This document shows positions 3,661-27,582 of a DNA stretch of 64,000 nt, one piece after another. A program made the position numbers and the translations under genes. The notes beneath the pieces were generated by a model. The model made no database searches. It worked only from the letters and a program-made list of their open reading frames with translations, and had not been told where the DNA came from. Source of the DNA: Daphnia pulex (Eukaryota > Arthropoda > Branchiopoda > Diplostraca > Daphniidae); the NCBI RefSeq assembly GCF_021134715.1, contig NC_060023.1, positions 9,548,001 to 9,612,000 on the forward strand, written 5' to 3'. How positions within the stretch are numbered: position 1 is the stretch's first letter; every line of letters begins with the position of its first letter.

Positions 3661-4276
3661 AAACGAATTTCGCGCGAGACTTTGTAAATCCGAACAGTTA
3701 TAAGAAGGAGCAAGCAGCATTAACCGCTGAATAATTATTTTGCAATTTGACACTTGTGTGTGACACCTGGTCTAAGGAACGCGTAGCGAGACGCACTTTG
3801 TAATTGTTTTGTTCCGTTCATGGAATGGATTTGTTTGACTGTTCATTTTAATGACGCTGTTATGTTAACAAAGTCAAATGTTGCCTGGCGCCATGCTGTC
3901 TCCGATTTAAATCTATTTTCACTCTTCTACCAGTTAAAAAAGTAGTTTCATTTTGCAATCATTTGTAGGGAAATTTTGTGAGATACGCATCCCTTCGTTT
4001 AAAAAAAACAAAAAAATATTTTTTTCCATTCACTTTAAGATCCGTTGCTAATGACAATTTAAAGACATGCAGTAATCATGATAATTTGTCAATCTGTTTC
4101 ACTTCTAAAGCCGCCTGTACACACGACAAGACTAGTGTTGACCATGTTACACTCCTGTGTTTCGCGCGATGCTCCAACGTGAATGCAGATTTGTTTTGCC
4201 ACTGAATTCCTTTTTGTAATCTTACCATTCGTTATGCATGCGTGTTAAATCAGAGGGTAAATAAAGAGTTTTATTA
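3661..4276. other. 3' UTR region between convergent genes
   Basis: This stretch follows the mannosidase stop and contains no convincing ORF. AATAAA at 4260-4265 fits the plus-strand transcript end, which lies almost at the stop codon of the convergent minus-strand gene (4277). The two 3' ends therefore abut or overlap slightly. Confidence 0.5.
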
Positions 4277-14629: not shown

Positions 14630-15927
14630 AATTAATTTAGTTGTAGTTGTTGCCATAAAGTTGTTACATTTTTTTTTGTATTTGGGCATTGCTGCATTAG
14701 ATGTAGTAGTGATGGTTTAGTTTTTGGAACTATTGTTGAATTTTTTATGGAAAATGCATTTATACTGTCATCTGCGGTAATTGTTATGATATTCAGATAT
14801 TGCGTGGTTTTATACCTACATTTACTGTTATTCTACATTGTTTGATTTGCAATTCTTATATCACAGAGGAAGTGGTGTTTCTTGTCACCCTTTTCATGTT
14901 ACGATACTGTTCCATTTCATCAGCTCAATAAAATGCAATGTTCAACCTTTAACGGAAACTATGATTGAAAAATTTTAAAAGGTCAGCCAACAGGTTCGCC
15001 ACAAAACCAGCAGTCGATAGCTCAAATATGCTAAGGGTGCTGACAACTTCATGGAATCTTAAAGCTAACCTGCACCACGTCCGATAAACTTCAGCGGCTC
15101 GTTTCACACAGAACGTCCAAGTATACAACAGCGCAATGATGAATTGGAATTGATCCATTGTAAGCATTCTTTTGTTTATTACTATATATTTTTTAATCGT
15201 TAGACGCATTCCATAAGGTAGATTTTTCTTATCGGTCAGTGCTTCAAGCATCATCAATTTCAAAGTTCAAATTCCAATTTTCCCGATAGGGATTCTTTCT
15301 TACTTAGATCCTCAAAGGCCCAAAGTCCGAAAAGATGACGCCGCTATATTTACCTTTCTGAAATCAAACATTAGACTGAAGTTGGATGAGTGAAAATGAT
15401 GCCGAAATGTGAAAACCCCATGTTTAAATCTTTAGCGTTATATTAGAAATGATTTGCGTAAGAATGAATGGTTCACAATTTAAAATATGTGTTTACATGT
15501 CCATACCTTTGCTTAGGGAAAGAAAAGCGAAATCGTAAAGATGGTGAAAATAAAGTTGAATATTGTTGACTGGTTTTGCCATCCAGCATTCAAGCTACTA
15601 ACAACTTAGCTGAAGGTTGTGTGAGGACTGAGGAATGTGTGGAAACATTTCTAAGTATAGCCATCGAATCCTGGCATTCCCATCCTTAGGAATAGTCTTT
15701 TTCCGATTATCTTTTGCATTATCAGCGATTATTAGTATAAAGCATTGCGTGCCTTTTTGCGAAAACGAACAGCTGAACAAGGTCTTTATAAACTTTTCCA
15801 TTTATGAAACTCTCAACTTCTCACAAAAATTTATAAATTTATCATTTCTACTCAATTCATCTCTTTTTCAACTCTACCTTACTCAGTTGCTATATTTTTA
15901 TGGCAACAAACTTACTTTATATCCATC
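14630..15927. other. Intergenic flank left of the large inverted repeat
   Basis: The first 300 bp are the likely 3' UTR of the CENP-B-type gene, with AATAAA at 14927-14932. A possible minus-strand ORF occupies 14949-15263 and is listed separately. The remainder is AT-rich with opposing short open frames at 15598-15801 and 15635-15991 and no recognisable protein. Confidence 0.35.
14949..15251 (-). CDS. Possible small hypothetical protein
   Basis: A minus-strand frame of about 100 codons starts at an ATG near 15251 (MMLEALTDKKNLPYGMRLTI...) and stops at 14949, just past the polyadenylation signal of the convergent gene. The composition is protein-like, with amphipathic segments and a hydrophobic stretch near FIIALLYTWTFCV. 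I recognise no family and see no clear upstream exon. It could be the last exon of a larger gene or a chance frame. Confidence 0.25.
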   Translation of the reverse strand: MLEALTDKKNLPYGMRLTIKKYIVINKRMLTMDQFQFIIALLYTWTFCVKRAAEVYRTWCRLALRFHEVVSTLSIFELSTAGFVANLLADLLKFFNHSFR

Positions 15928-16330
15928 AACAAAGTCCACTTGTGAAATTTCCGATAATTGCTATTTTTTTTTATCTACTGTCAGTTTCTAAATTCGATGA
16001 TAAGTAAGTGTGTAAATATTCCTGTGACGCCGAAAGGAACCCAACATAATTTATTTTTTTAAATTTTCTTTTCCGTCCGAATCTAGTCGTCCGTGGATTG
16101 CTAAGGGCTGTCACTAGGTGGCTAAATATTTCAGTGTGTTTAGGGATTGAACTATTCGACCCTAGTGCGTCAAAGCCCTGACTGCAGATTCCTGTCTTTT
16201 CTTTCCAGACGGTGTCCGAGAACGTTGGGCGAGGCATTGCGAGGTAATTGTGTTCCTGAAAGTGTTCGTCAGAAAAATGGTAACTACCTGTATTCTATAT
16301 GGTTATCGAAAATGAGATTTTTGTGCGTGG

Positions 16331-17340
16331 TGAATTTACAAGTAACATGTTCATCAACGTGTACAATCCCATCATCATGTGTTCTGCTGTATAATTTCCT
16401 AAAATGTCGTCACTTGCTTTACGTTGCACGTTTCGTCACAAGATGAGGTATTTCCACGCCATTCGTCTTCGATCAAGCTGAACCGAAAGTGAACTAATAT
16501 AAAGCAAGTAAGTATATCGTGGGAATTAAACGTTTCCGAAAAGTCTATGTGAAGATCTAACCTGATCTATTTTGTAAAGCATATCGAAGATCGTGCCTTT
16601 ATCCACGTGGTCGCTGCCGTGTCATGAAGAAGTTGAGAGGGTCTCTTCTTTATTGCAAGACAAATGTGATGAAAAGAAGAAATCTGAGAAGGTAATTAAG
16701 TATTTGTAAGCTTAATCAAGTAGGTAAGTAGTTCAGATGTTTAAGATGATTGTTATTTTTTCATGTTTCCATACAAGACAGCAATTGTGGAAAGATATGT
16801 CAGTTTGTAATCGATCAGAAGAGACATTCCCTTAACTTTTAAAAGTAATCTTAGTGTGATGTAAACTGTAGCCTTAGCCAGAAAATGTTAATTTTTCGTG
16901 TTCGGTTTTCCAAATTTCTTCATTCAGTCGAGATGCACTTGGCTTCTGCAGACATTTACTCGAGCCAATACTTGCTAGAATAATAATCTGTCTGTATGTA
17001 TGGATAAAGTATCTATTAAATAATCTGGCCATGTGGGCTTAAACTGTTCATATTGCATAATAATGTTGTCTATTGTTTCCTGTGGAGTTTCAATGATTGA
17101 TTATATAATTTAATGCCAAGGTAAGATATCCCTTGTAAAGAATTTATCAACATGACCAAGTCTGAGCTTCATTTCTGTCATGCAGGAAGTTTTGTTGCAG
17201 CCAACTGATGAAAGGGAGTTAAAATTAAGTTGAGCTGCAGCCCCTGGAAGCAGTCTATATTACTGGTGTCATCCTGAAGTGGTGAAATGTTACCTGAAGT
17301 TCAACAGCAACAAAGACATCTTGAAATGGTAATTTGATTG
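16331..17340 (+). repeat. Diverged tandem module, copy 1 (left arm)
   Basis: Three blocks here recur in the same order in copy 2 at 17716-18355: a block around 16331-16515 with CCACGCCATTCG and GAACCGAAAGTGAA; a block around 16580-16735 with TGTCATGAAGA, GAGAGGGTC and ATTGCAAGACA; and a block around 17150-17340 with CATTTCTGTCATGCAGGA and GGAAGCAGTCTA. Spacing between blocks differs, so the copies have accumulated insertions or deletions. Block edges often look like splice sites, such as CTGTCATGCAG before and AAATGGTAATTTG after. A mirrored copy is at about 25220-26229. Confidence 0.75.
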
Positions 17341-17715
17341 TGATTATGGGACTTGGAACTGGGGATGTCCCATGAAATCCAATTTAAATGTTGTAATGGG
17401 ACTACAGTATTGTTAAAAAATAGATGCCTGCCTGATCAGCTTGTGCTGAGGTGAAATTTTCTTTGTGATGAAACAAGAAATTCCCTTGGAAAAGAAACTT
17501 TTGGTGCAACCTTGTCACAACGTGACGCATTTTACGTGTGTTGGTAATTTAGGGGCATGTGTCGAGCAGAAGGAAGACGAGTGACATTTTAATTCTTTCT
17601 GGGACGCTGTTCGAGGGCGTTTTTTTTTAAAAGTTATTTCTGGGTGATGTCATCTAAAAGGTGTTTCCTGCTTGAATTCTATTAGGTTATTTAGAAATCA
17701 AAAATGTAACTGTTT

Positions 17716-18355
17716 GGTGTGGTAAATTTACAGGTAACATGTCCTTGGCTCATTTGATCATGTGGCCTGCTGTACATTTTCCAAAAATGTCGTCCCTTGG
17801 TGCATGACACACGTTTTGTCACATGAATAGGTATCTCCACGCCATTCGACCAAACTGAACCGAAAGTGAATCATTTCAAGCAAGTAAGTGAATCTTAATA
17901 GTTCAGACTTTTGAAAAGCCCATTTGCTAATGTACTTCAATCAATATGTAAAAGCATGTTGAATATTTTGCCTTTCTCCATGGGTCCATGGGCTGTGTCA
18001 TGAAGATGGATCTTTGAGAGGGTCACTACTGCATTGCAAGACAGAATGATGAAAAGAGGGAAAATATTAAGGTAAAGTACATGTAAGCTTAATAAAGTAG
18101 GTTAGTATTAATGATGTTAAAGATAAGTTTATCGGTTTATTTTCAGGTAAAAGAATCCTTTCCTTACCTGCTGAAGAATTTGAGAACACAGCAAAGTCTG
18201 GACCACATTTCTGTCATGCAGGAGGTTTTGCTGCTGCAGCCAGCCATTGAAAGGGAGTTTAAATGAAGTTGAGTTGAAGCTCCTGGAAGCAGTCTACATT
18301 GCTGGTGTCATCCTAAAGTTAAACAGCAACACAGATAAGCTGGTAATTTTATTGT
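17716..18355 (+). repeat. Diverged tandem module, copy 2 (left arm)
   Basis: This is the second, more compact copy of the three-block module seen at 16331-17340. It shares CTCCACGCCATTCGACC, TGTCATGAAGATGG, GAGAGGGTCAC, CATTTCTGTCATGCAGGAGG and GGAAGCAGTCTACATTGCTG. A third partial copy of the last block (GAGCTGGTGTTATCCACAAG, then AAATGGTAATTTGATTGTGA) is at about 18705-18800. The repeated AG...GT boundaries suggest reiterated exons of a noncoding transcript, since no frame is conserved between copies. The mirrored copy is at about 24205-24844. Confidence 0.7.
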
Positions 18356-19479
18356 GATTATGTTTTGTAATTGGGGAAGTCACATTAAAATGTTGTAGTG
18401 GGTAAATTGTTTTTAAAAGATAGGTCTTATTGAAAGAGCTGTCTGCTTGATCAGATTGTTTTAGACTGTAATTTTGTATTTGTTTCAACTAGAACAAAGT
18501 TCTTTAAAAACTTTTGATGAAACCTTGTCTTGCAGTTTAAAGAATTTTGCTGCTGCTAGATTGCATTTGGTCTAGATTTTAATTTAAAGTTGACATGACA
18601 TTTCTGTTTCTTTCATTACATGCTTTTTTACATCTGTGAAGGTTAAAATGATAATTAATGAATTTGCTTTTTCTCAGCAGTGTCAATGTGATGCTGCATA
18701 CTGTCAATGGAGCTGGTGTTATCCACAAGTTTAGAAGCAAAACTAGAAGCACAGCTGCAAGAACACATCTCGAAATGGTAATTTGATTGTGATTGTTAGT
18801 TGTAACTCGAGAAATGTAGGCTTTTATTGAAATGTGTTAAGTCACAAGTTAAACTGTTAACCGACGCGTGATTTTAGCAGTATGATTGAAGTTATTGTGA
18901 AAGGATGGTGTATTGCATTATTGACGGAGTTCTAGATTGTCAATTTTCTTAGGAAGAAGTTATCAGATAAATTTCCTCTTAATTCTACAAACTTTTTATG
19001 AAATTTTGAAGTTGTGTTATATCTATTTTTTGGGGTTTCTGACAGGATGGTGGAAATTTGCCGTGGTTTTGCAGTCTGCTGCCTGTTCAAGCTGTTGCTA
19101 TCCTGGATTTTGCCTTAATCCTTGAAATAGCAGATGTTGGTGGCATCCAGATGTTGCTGTGGCAGTGTGGCAGTGAAATTCGGGTTGAAGATTAAAATAC
19201 TTTCGTCTGATAAATGTTTATCGATCCATGTAGCGTATGATTGAAGTAACTTGATATTAATTTGCTATTCCATGTCACATGTTGCAGCCTGTGTTGGTGA
19301 GAGTTCTTTGACACTAAGTTCTATCTGCTGTTGATGTTGGATATGATATTACCTTTATCCACATCCACATGATATCAAATTATTCCTTATTAATTGATGG
19401 CCAAACCTCCTAAGTCAAACCTGCAATCTTGTGTTATGTCAACTTCATTGTTTATATCTTATCACATTTCACTTGTAAT

Positions 19480-19720
19480 CTATATAAATATAAATAATAC
19501 CCAAATTAAAAAATACCAATCAACTGAAATGCTTTAAATAGAATGAAATAAATCTAAATATTTAAATAAATATTGTCCAATAAAATTCAAACAAATTAAA
19601 TTATAATTAAACTTAAATAAGTTAACTTAATTAATTTAAGTTAATGACATTAACTAAAGTTGATGTAATTAAATTAAGTTAATGTAATTAAATGACTAAA
19701 ATTTCCCTGTTTTTAATCAA
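19480..19720 (+). repeat. AT-rich tract built from short TTAA-type repeats
   Basis: An extremely AT-rich stretch with overlapping copies of words such as TTAAGTTAA and AATTAAATTAAG, interspersed with runs of AAATA. It is present in both arms, mirrored at about 22840-23080. Such tracts can melt easily or extrude cruciforms. No coding content. Confidence 0.7.
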
Positions 19721-19770
19721 AATGGTTGTAATCTAATAAACAAAGCGTCCGGTACAAGACAGTTGTTTTT

Positions 19771-19868
19771 CTGTGCAAGTTTTAAAACCAATTATACCCA
19801 AATAAAAGAAGCCTAACAAACTCCTTTTGTTCCATTTGGGTGATAAACTGCTTCTAAAACTTGCACAG
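19771..19868 (+). repeat. Imperfect hairpin inside left arm
   Basis: CTGTGCAAGTTTTA near the start pairs with TAAAACTTGCACAG at the end, and inner segments CCCAAAT and ATTTGGG also pair, giving a roughly 98-base foldback. The mirrored copy is at 22692-22789. Length and stem are compatible with a structured RNA, but the bulges and the lack of a clear 22-base duplex do not support a microRNA call. Confidence 0.55.
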
Positions 19869-20349
19869 GTAGTCAATGAAGACGGGGGTCACACTGCCTT
19901 AATTGACTGTAGCCAGGGAGATCAGACCACAGTAAAGAAGGGAGCCCAGATATACACTTGTGATTTATCTAACAACTACACAATCTATCAGTCTTGAATC
20001 ACAGCATTCTCTTGTCAGCTTTTACCAATTGGATGAAGTCCATTAAAATTAGCAAAGGAGTTACCCCTGTAGACAGAAAGAACTTTTATTATGAGTCATT
20101 TTTAATAAGATTTTAGCAACAGAAAGCCATACCTCAAATCAAGAGGGAGCCATACCTCAGCCATCGGGTTTACCACTGTATTGCCATTGTCCTTTTTCTT
20201 CAAGGACTCATAAATTCTAAGAACCTGTAAATAAAAAATCAAGTCACCTTATTCATAATTTGTTTCATCGATGTGCTTGATGTCTATCATGTAAAAGAAT
20301 AATTAAACATAAACATTAGATAGACGTTAGTGCAGAACAATACTCTACA

Positions 20350-22210
20350 TACATTTGTTCACAATACTCTACTGCAACCAAAATGTTCAGTGACAAGACA
20401 AGTAAACTCTAAACTTACACACGAAACCACTGATCAGTTATTCAAGGTTCTCTAGAAGTAACTTAGGTCCAGACGAAGCCAGACAAGCTGTTGCATTCCA
20501 ATGCTGCTCTCCAATTATTAATGGCCATCGAAACCTACAGAAAAAAAGAAAGATTTATCACAGGTAAGGTAAAGTGCAGAATGACAGGAATAAAGCTAAA
20601 AGGGTGATACAGGTGAATATTAATTTAATAAGATGCCCAGTCCCTGGATCAAATGAGCCAGGAACATGCTGTTGTTGTCAGATAGGGTAGCTTGTGGAAA
20701 GGATTTTTCATCTTCACCATCATTTGTGACTGACTTAATGTTTGCTGTTGCCTTGTAGTATGTAGCCTAGTAGTGTCCTCAATGAATATAAACACATTCT
20801 GGACTACCTTGCAGGACTATTGACAGGACTATTGCAGGACTACCTTGGCCCTGGCAACTGGCAGGTTTAACTTACCAATTGGGTGTTTTCCCTTTCAGCA
20901 ATCCACTGTCCAGCACAGGTGCTGAAACGTCTGGAATCACTTGCAGACAACATGAACGGATATCTGTCTTGAGTGCCTTCTCCTCAGTGTAGAAGTTAAA
21001 GTGGCGTTCAATATCACCTTGGGAATTTCGTCTTTTGTGATGTGTGATGCTGCGTGGTGGCTTACTGGCTTTCTTGTGAAATTTTGCATGGGGAATATTA
21101 CGTGAGTATCAAAGTTATTTGTTACCTTTGTTTGCCAGTTCTTTCAATTGAATGTCAACGAGCTAGAGCGGACATTGTTTTCATGTTACATTTAAACGTT
21201 TATTCTTTCTGACGCTAGACGGCATAGCCTTTATCATTTTTTACCTGTTAGAATCAGTGTAAATACGCTTACTTTGCACATCTCTGAAGAATTTTCTCAA
21301 TGCTACTTAAAAAAAAATTTGGGTGATAACTGTCACTTTCTGTTTCAGCAACAAAGCTCACTTGTTAGAATTTTAATAATGAGTTTTTTTTTCTACTTCC
21401 GGTTTTCAACTTTTCAGTCAGTAGTTCAGTAAATATTCATTCGAGGAGCAAAAGAACCACATATTCATGATCCTCGTTAAATTTGTGGTAAAGTTCATGT
21501 TATCTTTTTTACGTATTCGTACTTCCGGTTTCGAAAATTTTCCTGAACTATAGTTCAGGAAAATTCTCGATTTTGGCCAAATTCTGGATTTCGTTTAAAT
21601 TAGACTTAATCGACCCCAAATTTCACGTAGATCACGAATATTTGGTTTATTTGGTCGGCAGCTCAATGGTTGAGGCGCTATCGACTACTTCCGGTATACT
21701 TCCGAAAAATTTGCATAAAACTAGCAAGTGAGCTTTGTTCTCTGTACAATTCTAAAGACTCCGTGCCCATTTAAGCGAACAGAAATGGTCTTTTTGATTA
21801 CTTTTATGACTTTTTTTACTATCTAAGGCCGGTCCTTTAGAAAGTGGGTTTTGGACGTGTCAAATAGATGGCGCTAAAGAATATTGTGTTGATATGTGCT
21901 TATTATGGCGGCTCGTTATCAACAGTTCAGCTAAAGCTAATTTCTTCAAAAATTACCAAAGAATTCGTAGGTAAATTGGATATATTTTGTGTGTAATTTG
22001 TTGGGCATGTGTTCTTTTCCTTTTATGTGTTTTATAACCTTACTATTTCTCATTAATTTCCAGGAGAAAATGTGAAAGTGGCATGCAGCCTACCTGTCAA
22101 CTATTGTGTTGTAAATCCTGGGATCCTACTGAATGTGTCATCCAAATGCGTAAATGACAGAGGTAACAACTAACACTAGCTTGATCAAGTATTTTGCTGA
22201 AATATGTATT
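20350..22210. other. Spacer between the inverted-repeat arms
   Basis: About 1.86 kb of sequence not palindromic with itself on the main axis. It contains a reversed, diverged fragment of the arm module (about 20637-20675, sharing ATCAAATGAGCCA), small GGACTATTGCAGGACTA-type repeats near 20812-20845, a 390 bp foldback element at 21350-21739, and a TAGATGGCGCTA motif near 21866. No ORF above about 60 codons and no transposase signature is visible on either strand. Confidence 0.7.
21350..21739. mobile_element. MITE-like foldback element with 19 bp terminal inverted repeats
   Basis: The ends are AACAAAGCTCACTTGTTAG and the reverse complement of AACAAAGCTCACTTGCTAG, a 19 bp terminal inverted repeat with one mismatch, enclosing 390 bp. 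Near the exact middle is a perfect 30 bp palindrome at 21536-21565. The element has no ORF, as expected for a non-autonomous DNA element. No clear target-site duplication is visible (left flank AGC, right flank CTC). The terminal sequence closely resembles the outer ends of the 10.7 kb inverted-repeat structure. The superfamily is not assigned. Confidence 0.6.
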
Positions 22211-25200
22211 TGTAGAGTATTGTTCTGCAATAACGTCTATCTAATGTTTATGTTTAATTATTCTTTTACATGATAGACATCAAGCACATCGATGAAACAA
22301 ATTATGAATAAGGTGACTTGATTTTTTATTTACAGGTTCTTAGAATTTATGAGTCCTTGAAGAAAAAGGACAATGGCAATACAGTGGTAAACCCGATGGC
22401 TGAGGTATGGCTCCCTCTTGATTTGAGGTATGGCTTTCTGTTGCTAAAATCTTATTAAAAATGACTCATAATAAAAGTTCTTTCTGTCTACAGGGGTAAC
22501 TCCTTTGCTAATTTTAATGGACTTCATCCAATTGGTAAAAGCTGACAAGAGAATGCTGTGATTCAAGACTGATAGATTGTGTAGTTGTTAGATAAATCAC
22601 AAGTGTATATCTGGGCTCCCTTCTTTACTGTGGTCTGATCTCCCTGGCTACAGTCAATTAAGGCAGTGTGACCCCCGTCTTCATTGACTACCTGTGCAAG
22701 TTTTAGAAGCAGTTTATCACCCAAATGGAACAAAAGGAGTTTGTTAGGCTTCTTTTATTTGGGTATAATTGGTTTTAAAACTTGCACAGAAAAACAACTG
22801 TCTTGTACCGGACGCTTTGTTTATTAGATTACAACCATTTTGATTAAAAACAGGGAAATTTTAGTCATTTAATTACATTAACTTAATTTAATTACATCAA
22901 CTTTAGTTAATGTCATTAACTTAAATTAATTAAGTTAACTTATTTAAGTTTAATTATAATTTAATTTGTTTGAATTTTATTGGACAATATTTATTTAAAT
23001 ATTTAGATTTATTTCATTCTATTTAAAGCATTTCAGTTGATTGGTATTTTTTAATTTGGGTATTATTTATATTTATATAGATTACAAGTGAAATGTGATA
23101 AGATATAAACAATGAAGTTGACATAACACAAGATTGCAGGTTTGACTTAGGAGGTTTGGCCATCAATTAATAAGGAATAATTTGATATCATGTGGATGTG
23201 GATAAAGGTAATATCATATCCAACATCAACAGCAGATAGAACTTAGTGTCAAAGAACTCTCACCAACACAGGCTGCAACATGTGACATGGAATAGCAAAT
23301 TAATATCAAGTTACTTCAATCATACGCTACATGGATCGATAAACATTTATCAGACGAAAGTATTTTAATCTTCAACCCGAATTTCACTGCCACACTGCCA
23401 CAGCAACATCTGGATGCCACCAACATCTGCTATTTCAAGGATTAAGGCAAAATCCAGGATAGCAACAGCTTGAACAGGCAGCAGACTGCAAAACCACGGC
23501 AAATTTCCACCATCCTGTCAGAAACCCCAAAAAATAGATATAACACAACTTCAAAATTTCATAAAAAGTTTGTAGAATTAAGAGGAAATTTATCTGATAA
23601 CTTCTTCCTAAGAAAATTGACAATCTAGAACTCCGTCAATAATGCAATACACCATCCTTTCACAATAACTTCAATCATACTGCTAAAATCACGCGTCGGT
23701 TAACAGTTTAACTTGTGACTTAACACATTTCAATAAAAGCCTACATTTCTCGAGTTACAACTAACAATCACAATCAAATTACCATTTCGAGATGTGTTCT
23801 TGCAGCTGTGCTTCTAGTTTTGCTTCTAAACTTGTGGATAACACCAGCTCCATTGACAGTATGCAGCATCACATTGACACTGCTGAGAAAAAGCAAATTC
23901 ATTAATTATCATTTTAACCTTCACAGATGTAAAAAAGCATGTAATGAAAGAAACAGAAATGTCATGTCAACTTTAAATTAAAATCTAGACCAAATGCAAT
24001 CTAGCAGCAGCAAAATTCTTTAAACTGCAAGACAAGGTTTCATCAAAAGTTTTTAAAGAACTTTGTTCTAGTTGAAACAAATACAAAATTACAGTCTAAA
24101 ACAATCTGATCAAGCAGACAGCTCTTTCAATAAGACCTATCTTTTAAAAACAATTTACCCACTACAACATTTTAATGTGACTTCCCCAATTACAAAACAT
24201 AATCACAATAAAATTACCAGCTTATCTGTGTTGCTGTTTAACTTTAGGATGACACCAGCAATGTAGACTGCTTCCAGGAGCTTCAACTCAACTTCATTTA
24301 AACTCCCTTTCAATGGCTGGCTGCAGCAGCAAAACCTCCTGCATGACAGAAATGTGGTCCAGACTTTGCTGTGTTCTCAAATTCTTCAGCAGGTAAGGAA
24401 AGGATTCTTTTACCTGAAAATAAACCGATAAACTTATCTTTAACATCATTAATACTAACCTACTTTATTAAGCTTACATGTACTTTACCTTAATATTTTC
24501 CCTCTTTTCATCATTCTGTCTTGCAATGCAGTAGTGACCCTCTCAAAGATCCATCTTCATGACACAGCCCATGGACCCATGGAGAAAGGCAAAATATTCA
24601 ACATGCTTTTACATATTGATTGAAGTACATTAGCAAATGGGCTTTTCAAAAGTCTGAACTATTAAGATTCACTTACTTGCTTGAAATGATTCACTTTCGG
24701 TTCAGTTTGGTCGAATGGCGTGGAGATACCTATTCATGTGACAAAACGTGTGTCATGCACCAAGGGACGACATTTTTGGAAAATGTACAGCAGGCCACAT
24801 GATCAAATGAGCCAAGGACATGTTACCTGTAAATTTACCACACCAAACAGTTACATTTTTGATTTCTAAATAACCTAATAGAATTCAAGCAGGAAACACC
24901 TTTTAGATGACATCACCCAGAAATAACTTTTAAAAAAAAACGCCCTCGAACAGCGTCCCAGAAAGAATTAAAATGTCACTCGTCTTCCTTCTGCTCGACA
25001 CATGCCCCTAAATTACCAACACACGTAAAATGCGTCACGTTGTGACAAGGTTGCACCAAAAGTTTCTTTTCCAAGGGAATTTCTTGTTTCATCACAAAGA
25101 AAATTTCACCTCAGCACAAGCTGATCAGGCAGGCATCTATTTTTTAACAATACTGTAGTCCCATTACAACATTTAAATTGGATTTCATGGGACATCCCCA

Positions 25201-26631
25201 GTTCCAAGTCCCATAATCACAATCAAATTACCATTTCAAGATGTCTTTGTTGCTGTTGAACTTCAGGTAACATTTCACCACTTCAGGATGACACCAGTAA
25301 TATAGACTGCTTCCAGGGGCTGCAGCTCAACTTAATTTTAACTCCCTTTCATCAGTTGGCTGCAACAAAACTTCCTGCATGACAGAAATGAAGCTCAGAC
25401 TTGGTCATGTTGATAAATTCTTTACAAGGGATATCTTACCTTGGCATTAAATTATATAATCAATCATTGAAACTCCACAGGAAACAATAGACAACATTAT
25501 TATGCAATATGAACAGTTTAAGCCCACATGGCCAGATTATTTAATAGATACTTTATCCATACATACAGACAGATTATTATTCTACCAAGTATTGGCTCGA
25601 GTAAATGTCTGCAGAAGCCAAGTGCATCTCGACTGAATGAAGAAATTTGGAAAACCGAACACGAAAAATTAACATTTTCTGGCTAAGGCTACAGTTTACA
25701 TCACACTAAGATTACTTTTAAAAGTTAAGGGAATGTCTCTTCTGATCGATTACAAACTGACATATCTTTCCACAATTGCTGTCTTGTATGGAAACATGAA
25801 AAAATAACAATCATCTTAAACATCTGAACTGCTTACCTACTTGATTAAGCTTACAAATACTTAATTACCTTCTCAGATTTCTTCTTTTCATCACATTTGT
25901 CTTGCAATAAAGAAGAGACCCTCTCAACTTCTTCATGACACGGCAGCGACCACGTGGATAAAGGCACGATCTTCGATATGCTTTACAAAATAGATCAGGT
26001 TAGATCTTCACATAGACTTTTCGGAAACGTTTAATTCCCACGATATACTTACTTGCTTTATATTAGTTCACTTTCGGTTCAACTTGATCGAAGACGAATG
26101 GCGTGGAAATACCTCATCTTGTGACGAAACGTGCAACGTAAAGCAAGTGACGACATTTTAGGAAATTATACAGCAGAACACATGATGATGGGATTGTACA
26201 CGTTGATGAACATGTTACTTGTAAATTCACCACGCACAAAAATCTCATTTTCGATAACCATATAGAATACAGGTAGTTACCATTTTTCTGACGAACACTT
26301 TCAGGAACACAATTACCTCGCAATGCCTCGCCCAACGTTCTCGGACACCGTCTGGAAAGAAAAGACAGGAATCTGCAGTCAGGGCTTTGACGCACTAGGG
26401 TCGAATAGTTCAATCCCTAAACACACTGAAATATTTAGCCACCTAGTGACAGCCCTTAGCAATCCACGGACGACTAGATTCGGACGGAAAAGAAAATTTT
26501 AAAAAATAAATTATGTTGGGTTCCTTTCGGCGTCACAGGAATATTTACACACTTACTTATCATCGAATTTAGAAACTGACAGTAGATAAAAAAAATAGCA
26601 ATTATCGGAAATTTCACAAGTGGACTTTGTT
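22211..26631 (-). repeat. Right arm of the giant inverted repeat
   Basis: This 4,421 bp arm is the reverse complement of 15928-20349. It carries mirrored copies of every arm feature: the module copies (about 24205-24844 and 25220-26229), the AT-rich tract (22840-23080) and the hairpin (22692-22789). It ends with the complement of AACAAAGTCC and is followed directly by ATC. Near-identity over 4.4 kb implies a very recent duplication, ongoing gene conversion between arms, or an assembly fold-back. Confidence 0.95.
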
Positions 26632-27028
26632 ATCACAAATAACTTACTACACAGTAACTGTCGATCATTTTTACAGGGATGTCCAAAGTAGCTGAAAGCC
26701 TGAAACTGACTAATTTCTAATTTGACAGCTGAAAATGATCAAAGGCAAAATATAATAAAGCCATCAAGCGTTATTAGAAAAAAGAAACGTAGCAAGTAAA
26801 ACTTTGTTTGCGCGCAAGAAAAGGGGCCTGATATTTGAATTATTACACAGAAACAGAGTTTAACGTAAGTAGATTATTAGTAGATAATAATCTACGGGTA
26901 CCTGGGCATACTCTCCCGTGGTGAGCGACTACAGGTGTGTCATGGTGGATGGAAGCGACCACTGAAGTGATCGCATACGTTGTGTAGCAGCATAAGAAGC
27001 TGGATGAGCGTGCGTCGCGAAAATAAGG
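26632..27028. other. Right flank of the inverted repeat
   Basis: About 400 bp between the arm boundary and the first small ORF. A minus-strand frame at 26843-27055 is open for 70 codons but has no recognisable features. I see no RNA gene or repeat here. Confidence 0.35.
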
Positions 27029-27373
27029 ATGGAGCAAAACGTTGGTGGAAGTCACTCTTCTTTCACGGACAAAAGCCAGTATTGGCTCTACGATCTCCGT
27101 TCAAGGACTACCAAACTGCGTATTGACACTGGCGGCCGACTCGTGATCTCAGGAGACGCAACAAACATTTCTGTAAACGAGTTGGAAATTAAAAGGAAGC
27201 TTAAACAATTTACAGTAAAATTAATTACATCAACAAAACGTACAAATTAAAAAAAATAAAGGACTTACATACATTCTCTCGAGGGAGAAGAATGTAATGC
27301 TGTTCTTCCTGATGCTACGGCTAAAACAAAAGTGAAGCTACAAGGTGACATTAATCCACACCAAGGTGTGTGA
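27029..27373 (+). CDS. Possible two-exon small hypothetical protein
   Basis: An ATG at 27029 opens MEQNVGGSHSSFTDKSQYWL... for about 54 codons to ...KRKLKQFT, where a GTAAAA donor occurs at about 27216. An acceptor near 27282 (CTCTCGAG) would continue in phase with GEECNAVLPDATAKTKVKLQ and stop near 27373, giving about 93 aa. The composition looks coding, but the second exon overlaps the opposite-strand ORF at 27265-27582, so at most one is likely right in that overlap. No family recognised. Confidence 0.3.
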
Positions 27374-27582
27374 TCAACCCATTTGACATGAGAACTTACC
27401 TTACGCATTTTAAAACGAGAAATCATCATCTCTTCATCATCTATACGAATTAAGTTGAGTGCTATAACACGTTGAGTTTGTTTAAACTGTTGAGGTGGGG
27501 TTGTTTTGGTTGTTGACCACAGTGTCGTGCTTCCACCATCACTACTTTCCCTCAACAATAAAGAGTTAGAAAAGCGTGACAT
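27265..27582 (-). CDS. Possible small hypothetical protein
   Basis: A minus-strand ORF of 105 codons opens MSRFSNSLLLRESSDGGSTT and continues with NLIRIDDEEMMISRFKMRK, where a strong donor (AAG then GTAAGT) occurs. The first 60 residues look coding. If spliced, an acceptor at the second AG of CCGTAG gives HQEEQHYILLPREN, after which I could not fix a single continuation. If unspliced, it runs to the stop at 27265. The function is unknown, and it overlaps the plus-strand model at 27029-27373. Confidence 0.3.
   Translation of the reverse strand: MSRFSNSLLLRESSDGGSTTLWSTTKTTPPQQFKQTQRVIALNLIRIDDEEMMISRFKMRKVSSHVKWVDHTPWCGLMSPCSFTFVLAVASGRTALHSSPSRECM

Follow-up and report, generated by a model that had tools for sequence, protein, structure and literature searches.

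Background

Most discussion of self-homogenising palindromes concerns non-recombining sex chromosomes, and concerted evolution is likewise familiar from the inverted Hsp70 gene pair of Drosophila, where inverted duplicates are homogenised within a locus. Two papers describe how the arms of palindromes on mammalian X and Y chromosomes undergo gene conversion with each other (PMC8981503, PMC7953838). The latter also discusses gene conversion for palindromes in Adineta vaga and Folsomia candida, which were found from gene annotation, and leaves Daphnia pulex unscreened because annotation was lacking (PMC7953838). Among the open-access titles and abstract openings listed, none concerned Daphnia palindromes. 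The palindrome analysed here, from a window of 64,000 nucleotides of the D. pulex genome (contig NC_060023.1), resembles the mammalian palindromes, as those sources present them, in its long inverted arms of more than 99% identity, in its unique spacer and in arms that appear to evolve together. With the Adineta and Folsomia cases it has in common that these are invertebrate palindromic blocks for which gene conversion is discussed (PMC7953838), and with the Hsp70 pair the homogenisation of inverted duplicates within a locus.

The palindrome in the window

Comparison of the window with itself by BLASTN yields one large inverted match, between 15928-20364 and 26631-22194, so the 10.7-kb inverted repeat described in an earlier note is real. 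The match spans 4,440 columns at 99.75% identity (6 mismatches, 4 gap openings, bit score 8133) and encloses a spacer of 1,829 bp (20365-22193). The earlier note was right that the arms are almost identical and separated by a spacer, though its count of only four differences was slightly low and its spacer size of 1.86 kb slightly high. The remaining inverted matches, among those listed, are arm-internal repeats seen across the pair (at most 388 columns, 74%) and one 40-bp self-match inside the spacer, which excludes a chance origin. We refer to this palindrome as A, and to its C7 relatives as B and C7C. Its arms and flank comprise the following features.

15928..20364, + strand: left arm (self-BLAST, 99.75% identical to the right arm)
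22194..26631, - strand: right arm (self-BLAST), with an outer flank, 26641-26843, common to B and C7C
20365..20458, + strand: innermost left-arm segment without right-arm counterpart; at the right arm's inner end in most aligned relatives
26641..26888, + strand: outer right flank, with homologues in the right flanks of B and C7C and next to the C3a cores
15928..16066, + strand: half-core homologue at the left arm's outer end (mirror 26493-26631), identified by alignment with the left half of the palindrome in the spacer
16072..16170, + strand: second conserved arm block, 84-98% identical in at least 32 other places beyond C5 and the C7 group (scoring covered 40 of 116 candidates)
19927..20147, + strand: third conserved arm block, which also occurs alone at other loci

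Differences between the arms lie towards their ends. A MAFFT alignment places substitutions at 16060, 16478, 16729 and 16975, all in the outer 1.05 kb, a one-base indel at 15964, and, within the last 35 bp of the inner end, a substitution at 20330 and a messy stretch at 20349-20361; the homogenised interior, 16976-20329, contains zero differences. The left arm extends to about 20458, its terminal piece of about 93 bp being absent from the right arm, and the counterpart of this segment is also missing beside the spacer in B.

A dispersed family of palindromes

Seven more near-identical palindromes of the same family lie on five contigs, making eight loci including A. The earlier note had called the structure unusual in this genome, which is half right, A being one of a palindrome family here. 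Arms are about 3.5-6 kb long where measured, those of the loci p1 and C7t being lower bounds as they extend to the edge of the retrieved sequence, and an outer C12 palindrome has arms of 9.8 kb at 95% identity. Between loci the arms are 54-92% identical (97.0% between two units within a single C12 cluster), against 99.7% within A and 95.0% within B in the same alignment. Single-arm or decayed-arm copies are common among family loci, and the arms of the loci C7t and C2t hold ORF-like repeats.

Three further readings of these loci were considered and set aside. The flank common to A, B and C7C reaches only about 150-225 bp beyond the arm, and a large segmental duplication was rejected. The spacer of B is opposite in orientation to that of A, suggesting a spacer flip; since the canonical flank stands on both sides of B, a reversed locus and a flipped spacer are indistinguishable there. 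A transposon end seemed to be marked near 15922, where eight other places stop matching, but the right flanks of A, B and C7C stay alike, so the stop shows only that the left flank of A is unrelated.

The codon test on the arms and the Rfam and domain scans gave neither a coding signal nor a known family above cut-off. Silent change was more than 1.8 times replacement change in 17 of 178 open 40-codon windows (six arm pairs, both strands). One interval on the minus strand of p1 (3661-3781) was flagged in two arm pairs and, given a 19-base insertion in both, was not taken as coding. Frame-breaking indels separate the spacer copies (alignment of seven copies), and the two Rfam matches in window positions 15001-27500 are both below the gathering score. 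The twelve ORFs scanned, in the palindrome and at its right edge, gave one sub-threshold match to DUF1231 (E 0.0049).

The spacer and its core

The spacer is itself conserved, with these nested features.

20458..22193, + strand: conserved spacer unit, main stretches 80-93% identical with self excluded (7 copies aligned; 40 places scored out of 710 candidates)
21185..21804, + strand: core module of about 0.6 kb, 77-80% identical to the loci C7t, C2t, C7u and C6u
21349..21738, no strand: imperfect palindrome of about 390 bp, with two inverted halves starting AACAAAGCTCACTTG
21540..21561, no strand: 22-bp perfect palindrome TTCCTGAACTATAGTTCAGGAA at the spacer centre (genome-wide exact and mismatch search)

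The core module is the sole part found in common with the core loci of another arm type (C7t, C2t, C7u and C6u). Across the genome searched (133.2 Mb, 13 contigs) the 22-bp palindrome has 339 exact copies and occurs in 413 places within three mismatches, against 0 and 1 respectively for the reversed control. All family members examined have it, most of them having been found through it. Adjacent core pairs within 12 kb are inverted in 20 cases out of 22. At eight core-bearing loci (six from match lists, two chosen as lone cores) a near-identical palindrome is absent, so the core alone does not imply a palindrome. A role for the core as promoter of the repeat ORF was rejected: in C7t and C2t it sits beyond the 3' side of that ORF.

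The 22-bp palindrome, exact in 339 of 413 places, makes a strong candidate for a binding site that has so far gone unrecognised, and the core is probably a protein-bound regulatory element maintained by selection. A bolder proposal, which we consider unlikely, makes the 0.6-kb core a protein-bound chromosomal element under selection. Its 339-413 copies, perhaps at even intervals along some chromosome arms, would promote inverted duplication of the DNA around them and sustain gene conversion between the resulting palindrome arms. If true, one cis element would seed a whole class of self-homogenising palindromes genome-wide.

Arms of shared palindromes group by locus

Two pairs of loci allow the history of the arms to be followed. 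The palindromes p1 and p2 (both C5) are collinear across both arms, the junction and the spacer (6,779 columns, 91.4%), and their junction occurs in two places genome-wide within 3 mismatches (control 0). With gapped columns dropped, 137 sites unite the arms of one locus, 0 unite arms by side and 0 crosswise. The AU test gives p 1.1e-143 against uniting the left arms, for a clade chosen after the tree had been inspected. Close to the junction, within about 60 bp, both left arms keep a 6-bp stretch that is also present in the single-arm relative C5s and absent from both right arms; this split by side indicates that the old relationship survives at the arm edge.

The second pair, C7t and C2t, is homologous over 9.4 kb including the centre, with C7t reversed; crosswise grouping here means corresponding sides. 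In the outer 3,936 columns the counts of sites grouping by locus, same side and crosswise are 297/0/0; over the following 451 columns they are 7/1/7, and in the centre 2/4/25. A change from grouping by locus outside to grouping by corresponding side in the centre is the signature of arm-to-arm gene conversion. Arm identity also drops in steps, from 99.8-100% to 92% in C7t and from 99.6-100% to 91-93% in C2t; B has 99.8-100% inside and 80-94% at its ends. A homogenised interior with unconverted edges is thus found at all three loci. These results show two pairs of loci, each pair descended from a shared ancestral palindrome, with arms homogenised within each locus. We infer that gene conversion, and not repeated duplication anew at the same site, is the mechanism.

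History of A

The left junction of A is unique in the genome and unlike that of p1 and p2, which leaves A without a counterpart for the decisive junction test. That A shares their junction had seemed likely from BLAST coordinates and was rejected once the junctions were aligned. The breakpoint of B is in its left flank, at a different place from that of A. The outer ends of B are 78.7% alike, whereas its right arm and that of C7C (B_R and C_R) are 97.6% alike, which places the C7 inverted duplication before the split between B and C7C. C7C keeps left-arm relics that are 63-76% identical to its right arm. These relics and the half-core at the left end of B are pieces that also occur alone elsewhere, and so could be independent copies. 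Relative to B and C7C, 251 substitutions are common to both arms of A. Among changes common to both arms, GC bias, which has been reported as a sign of conversion in mammalian palindromes, is not seen (85 AT-to-GC against 94 GC-to-AT), a point that counts against conversion at A.

Judging from these C7 relatives, the arms of A have probably had the same history as those of the two pairs. We consider it likely that A is an ancient palindrome, a member of a dispersed family, whose arms are kept identical by arm-to-arm gene conversion. Each family palindrome would be an inverted duplication of a unit with the conserved core and the 22-bp palindrome; the inverted arms would pair with each other on the one chromosome and overwrite one another again and again by non-crossover gene conversion. 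Differences would be erased everywhere but close to the arm ends and to heterologies, at which conversion tracts would stop. The arms would therefore appear newly duplicated although the duplication is old.

Alternative explanations

Of the four options raised by the earlier note, comparison with other loci supports a palindrome maintained by gene conversion, directly for the two pairs of relatives and indirectly for A; assembly fold-back, young duplication and a giant terminal-inverted-repeat (TIR) transposon fit worse. It is unlikely that the arm at A was copied in inverted orientation too recently to diverge, each family palindrome being an independent recent event. The unique junction of A agrees with such an origin, and the 251 substitutions in both arms would also be expected from a recent copy; the differing breakpoints of A, B and p1/p2 imply that palindromes arose more than once, and the prevalence of inverted core pairs suggests that inverted duplication is frequent here. 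Yet p1 and p2 have one junction, and C7t and C2t one centre, while their arms group strictly by locus, so young duplication alone fails for these pairs. Nor does it fit B, with outer ends 21% apart and an interior about 100% alike, or the left-arm segment of A that has been lost from the right arm and from B. At A itself a recent re-duplication may nonetheless have taken place.

A giant TIR or fold-back transposon would account for a dispersed, high-copy family, for half-core sequences at both outer ends and for the block near the outer arm end that is so widely conserved elsewhere. We regard it as quite improbable: no transposase-like or other domain exceeded the cut-off in the 12 window ORFs, no target-site duplication is evident by eye at A, and copies without a second arm are common. 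Moreover, arms differ by 8-46% between loci (3% for the two C12-cluster units) and are 99.7% alike at A and 95.0% at B, opposite to the pattern that insertions of a single element would give; the short outer blocks are nonetheless conserved. That A is a putative hairpin-RNA locus, its arm identity kept because an RNA duplex is the product and is selected for small RNAs, is very improbable. The arms could pair if transcription crossed the spacer, and splice-like GT/AG positions can be picked out by eye in arms and spacer, but loci with one arm or a decayed arm are common, and the C7t and C2t arms hold ORF-like repeats instead. An assembly fold-back or mis-join as the source of the second arm is scarcely credible. 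Scaffolding errors are known to carry a risk of artificial palindromes (PMC7953838), but the arms of A differ at specific places, its outer flanks differ, the 1.8-kb spacer between the arms recurs elsewhere and the same kind of structure stands at eight loci. A fold-back predicts neither an identical junction at exactly two loci nor steps within arms from about 100% to 80-94% identity.

Comparison with known systems

Gene conversion between the arms would place A beside the systems named at the outset, from which it differs in several respects. Set against the mammalian X and Y palindromes, the related family here is on at least five contigs of one genome, arms are about 3.5-6 kb where measured, those of A show no coding signal, and the members examined share a conserved 22-bp palindrome. 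GC-biased arm substitution is reported for mammalian X palindromes, though a gene-converting palindrome need not show it, and it is not the pattern at A. The Adineta and Folsomia palindromes were recognised through annotated genes, whereas the test used here relies on sequence, and the window's unit is, to the extent tested, non-coding. The Drosophila Hsp70 pair consists of coding genes at one or two loci, without a genome-wide core element.

Daphnia pulex is a cyclical parthenogen; given that, sexual and asexual lineages could be used to measure conversion with and without meiosis. Whereas self-homogenising palindromes have mostly been discussed in the setting of sex chromosomes, here a related palindrome family occupies several contigs of a small genome, and two natural comparisons within it show the limits of conversion.

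Structure of the palindrome in the window

The two near-identical inverted arms proposed in an earlier note are real: the window (C7:9548001-9612000) contains a single long inverted repeat (A), whose arms share 99.75% identity over 4,440 columns around a 1,829-bp spacer.

15928-20364: left arm of A
22194-26631: right arm of A, inverted
21185-21804: core, a module within the spacer
16072-16170 and 19927-20147: two more short blocks, each conserved alone in dozens of places

Substitutions between the arms fall at positions 16060, 16478, 16729 and 16975 or within the innermost 35 bp, and 16976-20329 is free of differences. The left arm runs on to about 20458, a piece missing from the right arm. 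No convincing coding signal was found in the arms, and a Pfam scan of eight window ORFs (one without a match) returned ordinary domains outside A: GH47, KRR1, family-2 glycosyltransferase, TMEM87 GOLD, Fy-3, 2-oxoglutarate dehydrogenase C-terminal and PRORP.

A family of palindromes sharing one core

Searches of the 133.2-Mb genome (13 contigs) gave 59 matches to a 1-kb arm piece of A (40 of 237 candidates scored), 130 to its spacer (40 of 710) and 104 to its inner arm (40 of 422). From 26 stretches of 10 kb plus the window we obtained 16 assessable core-bearing loci, besides one further C2 locus with its core at the stretch edge and a C9 stretch lacking a core. Eight of the 16 have arms that reach both 3 kb and 97% identity. 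The sample is not random: p1, p2, C7t and C2t were picked since their matches looked paired, and B, C3a and C12 were taken off the arm-piece match list, where pairing was visible.

Core-bearing loci whose palindrome arms reach 3 kb and 97% identity (C plus number, contig), with arm identity
A, window: 99.75%
B, C7 9.28 Mb: 98.2%
C3a: 99.4%
C12: 99.94%
p1, C5: 99.1%
p2, C5: 99.3%
C7t: 99.1%
C2t: 97.2%

No such palindrome occurs at the other eight, namely C7C, a locus named C5 and C3b to C3e (from match lists) and C7u and C6u (chosen as lone cores). Short, decayed left-arm pieces (63-76% identity) remain at C7C, and the C3d core lacks the exact central bases. In one alignment, arm identity between loci is 54-92% (97.0% between two C12-cluster units); within loci it is 99.7% for A and 95.0% for B. 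C12:8972567-8996378 has 5.2-kb arms (99.94%) nested within 9.8-kb arms (95.3%). The three cores clustered at C3:265001-305000 are accompanied by several repeats, inverted as well as direct, that overlap one another and are mostly 92-99% identical.

The core is the part common to both arm types, that of A and that of C7t, C2t, C7u and C6u. In its middle, two inverted halves form an imperfect palindrome some 390 bp long; a half also occurs at the outer arm end. The centre of this structure is occupied by the perfect palindrome TTCCTGAACTATAGTTCAGGAA, with 339 exact genome copies (control 0). Allowing three mismatches gives 413 places (control 1), 82% of them exact, where independent drift at 80% identity would leave about 2% (binomial, by hand). 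Oriented 32-base versions occur 31 ('...ATC') and 258 ('...WTT') times. Among 131 sites listed (all '...ATC'; 100 of the 258 '...WTT', up to C7 1.52 Mb), 20 of 22 adjacent pairs within 12 kb are inverted, and all 15 pairs within 5 kb are divergent. Listed sites also seem regularly spaced over C7 0-1.5 Mb (19 clusters, median 65 kb, minimum 51 kb; CV 0.40 against 0.76 expected, P 0.0008), this being the best of seven segments picked post hoc; seven clusters on C2 0-0.9 Mb lie mostly 108-133 kb apart (P 0.04), and the other five segments gave P of at least 0.058.

The core is not linked to any one gene: different loci have repeat ORFs, a cuticle exon or no convincing coding signal. ORFs at C7t, C2t and C6u are rich in YYTEAPKYYT-like repeats, and at C7u a cuticle-protein exon with a Chitin_bind_4 match (L033 1977-2397; C7:409.8 kb) lies about 2.2 kb from the core. 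Core-linked units L031, L032 and L034 carry ORFs of Tyr/Pro/Thr-rich repeats (YYTEAPKYYTTKAPEYYT); the L034 copy appears frame-broken, and the one such ORF scanned had no Pfam match. Our best guess is that the core is a putative regulatory, protein-bound site. It shows a resemblance to nuclear-receptor half sites (AGTTCA) and, in its ACTTCCGG repeats, to ETS sites.

Arm-to-arm conversion or recent duplication

Arm-to-arm conversion at A is likely, the main rival being recent re-duplication. As the junction of A is unique in the genome, the case for conversion there is indirect. One inner segment is kept in the left arm of A and lost from its right arm and from B. The outer arm ends of B are only 78.7% alike despite 97.6% identity between the right ends of B and C7C, so inverted duplication within the C7 group of A, B and C7C would predate the B/C7C split; these ends and the C7C relics are, on the other hand, short stretches also present by themselves at other places, and may therefore be independent copies. 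Substitutions common to both A arms relative to B and C7C (251: 85 to GC, 94 to AT, 72 neutral) show no GC bias.

On C5, p1 and p2 match collinearly through both arms and spacer (6,779 columns, 91.4%; spacer 97.2%). Because of this collinearity, and because their left junction differs from those of A and of single-arm copies and occurs at two genome places (up to three mismatches allowed), they most likely descend from one palindrome. Their arm sites nevertheless group by locus (137, with none uniting corresponding arms and none crosswise). In a 17-row tree the arms of A, p1 and p2 grouped by locus with full support and those of B with 99/96. Forcing the left arms together cost 543 log units (AU p 1.1e-143), for a clade named once the 17-row tree had been seen. 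A 6-bp stretch at most about 60 bp from the junction is kept in both left arms and missing from both right arms.

The clearer case is C7t and C2t, which lie on different contigs and align, mutually reversed, over 9.4 kb including the centre. Across the outer 3,936 columns, grouping by locus is supported by 297 sites and any other grouping by none, with arm identity, gaps aside, of 100.0% and 99.8% within loci and about 91% between them. The next 451 columns have seven sites by locus, one same side and seven crosswise, whereas the centre, where the two halves of a locus share only 75-80% identity, has 25 crosswise (corresponding sides), four for the other sides and two by locus. The palindrome is thus older than the divergence of C7t from C2t, and homogenisation ends at the inner edge. 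B has this identity step too (interior 99.8-100%, ends 80-94%).

Comparison with known systems

The palindrome is real and of more interest than one lone repeat. Searches of the open-access literature listed no report of this palindrome family with its one conserved core. The process itself is of a known class: arm-to-arm conversion in palindromes is described for mammalian sex chromosomes (PMC8981503, PMC7953838).
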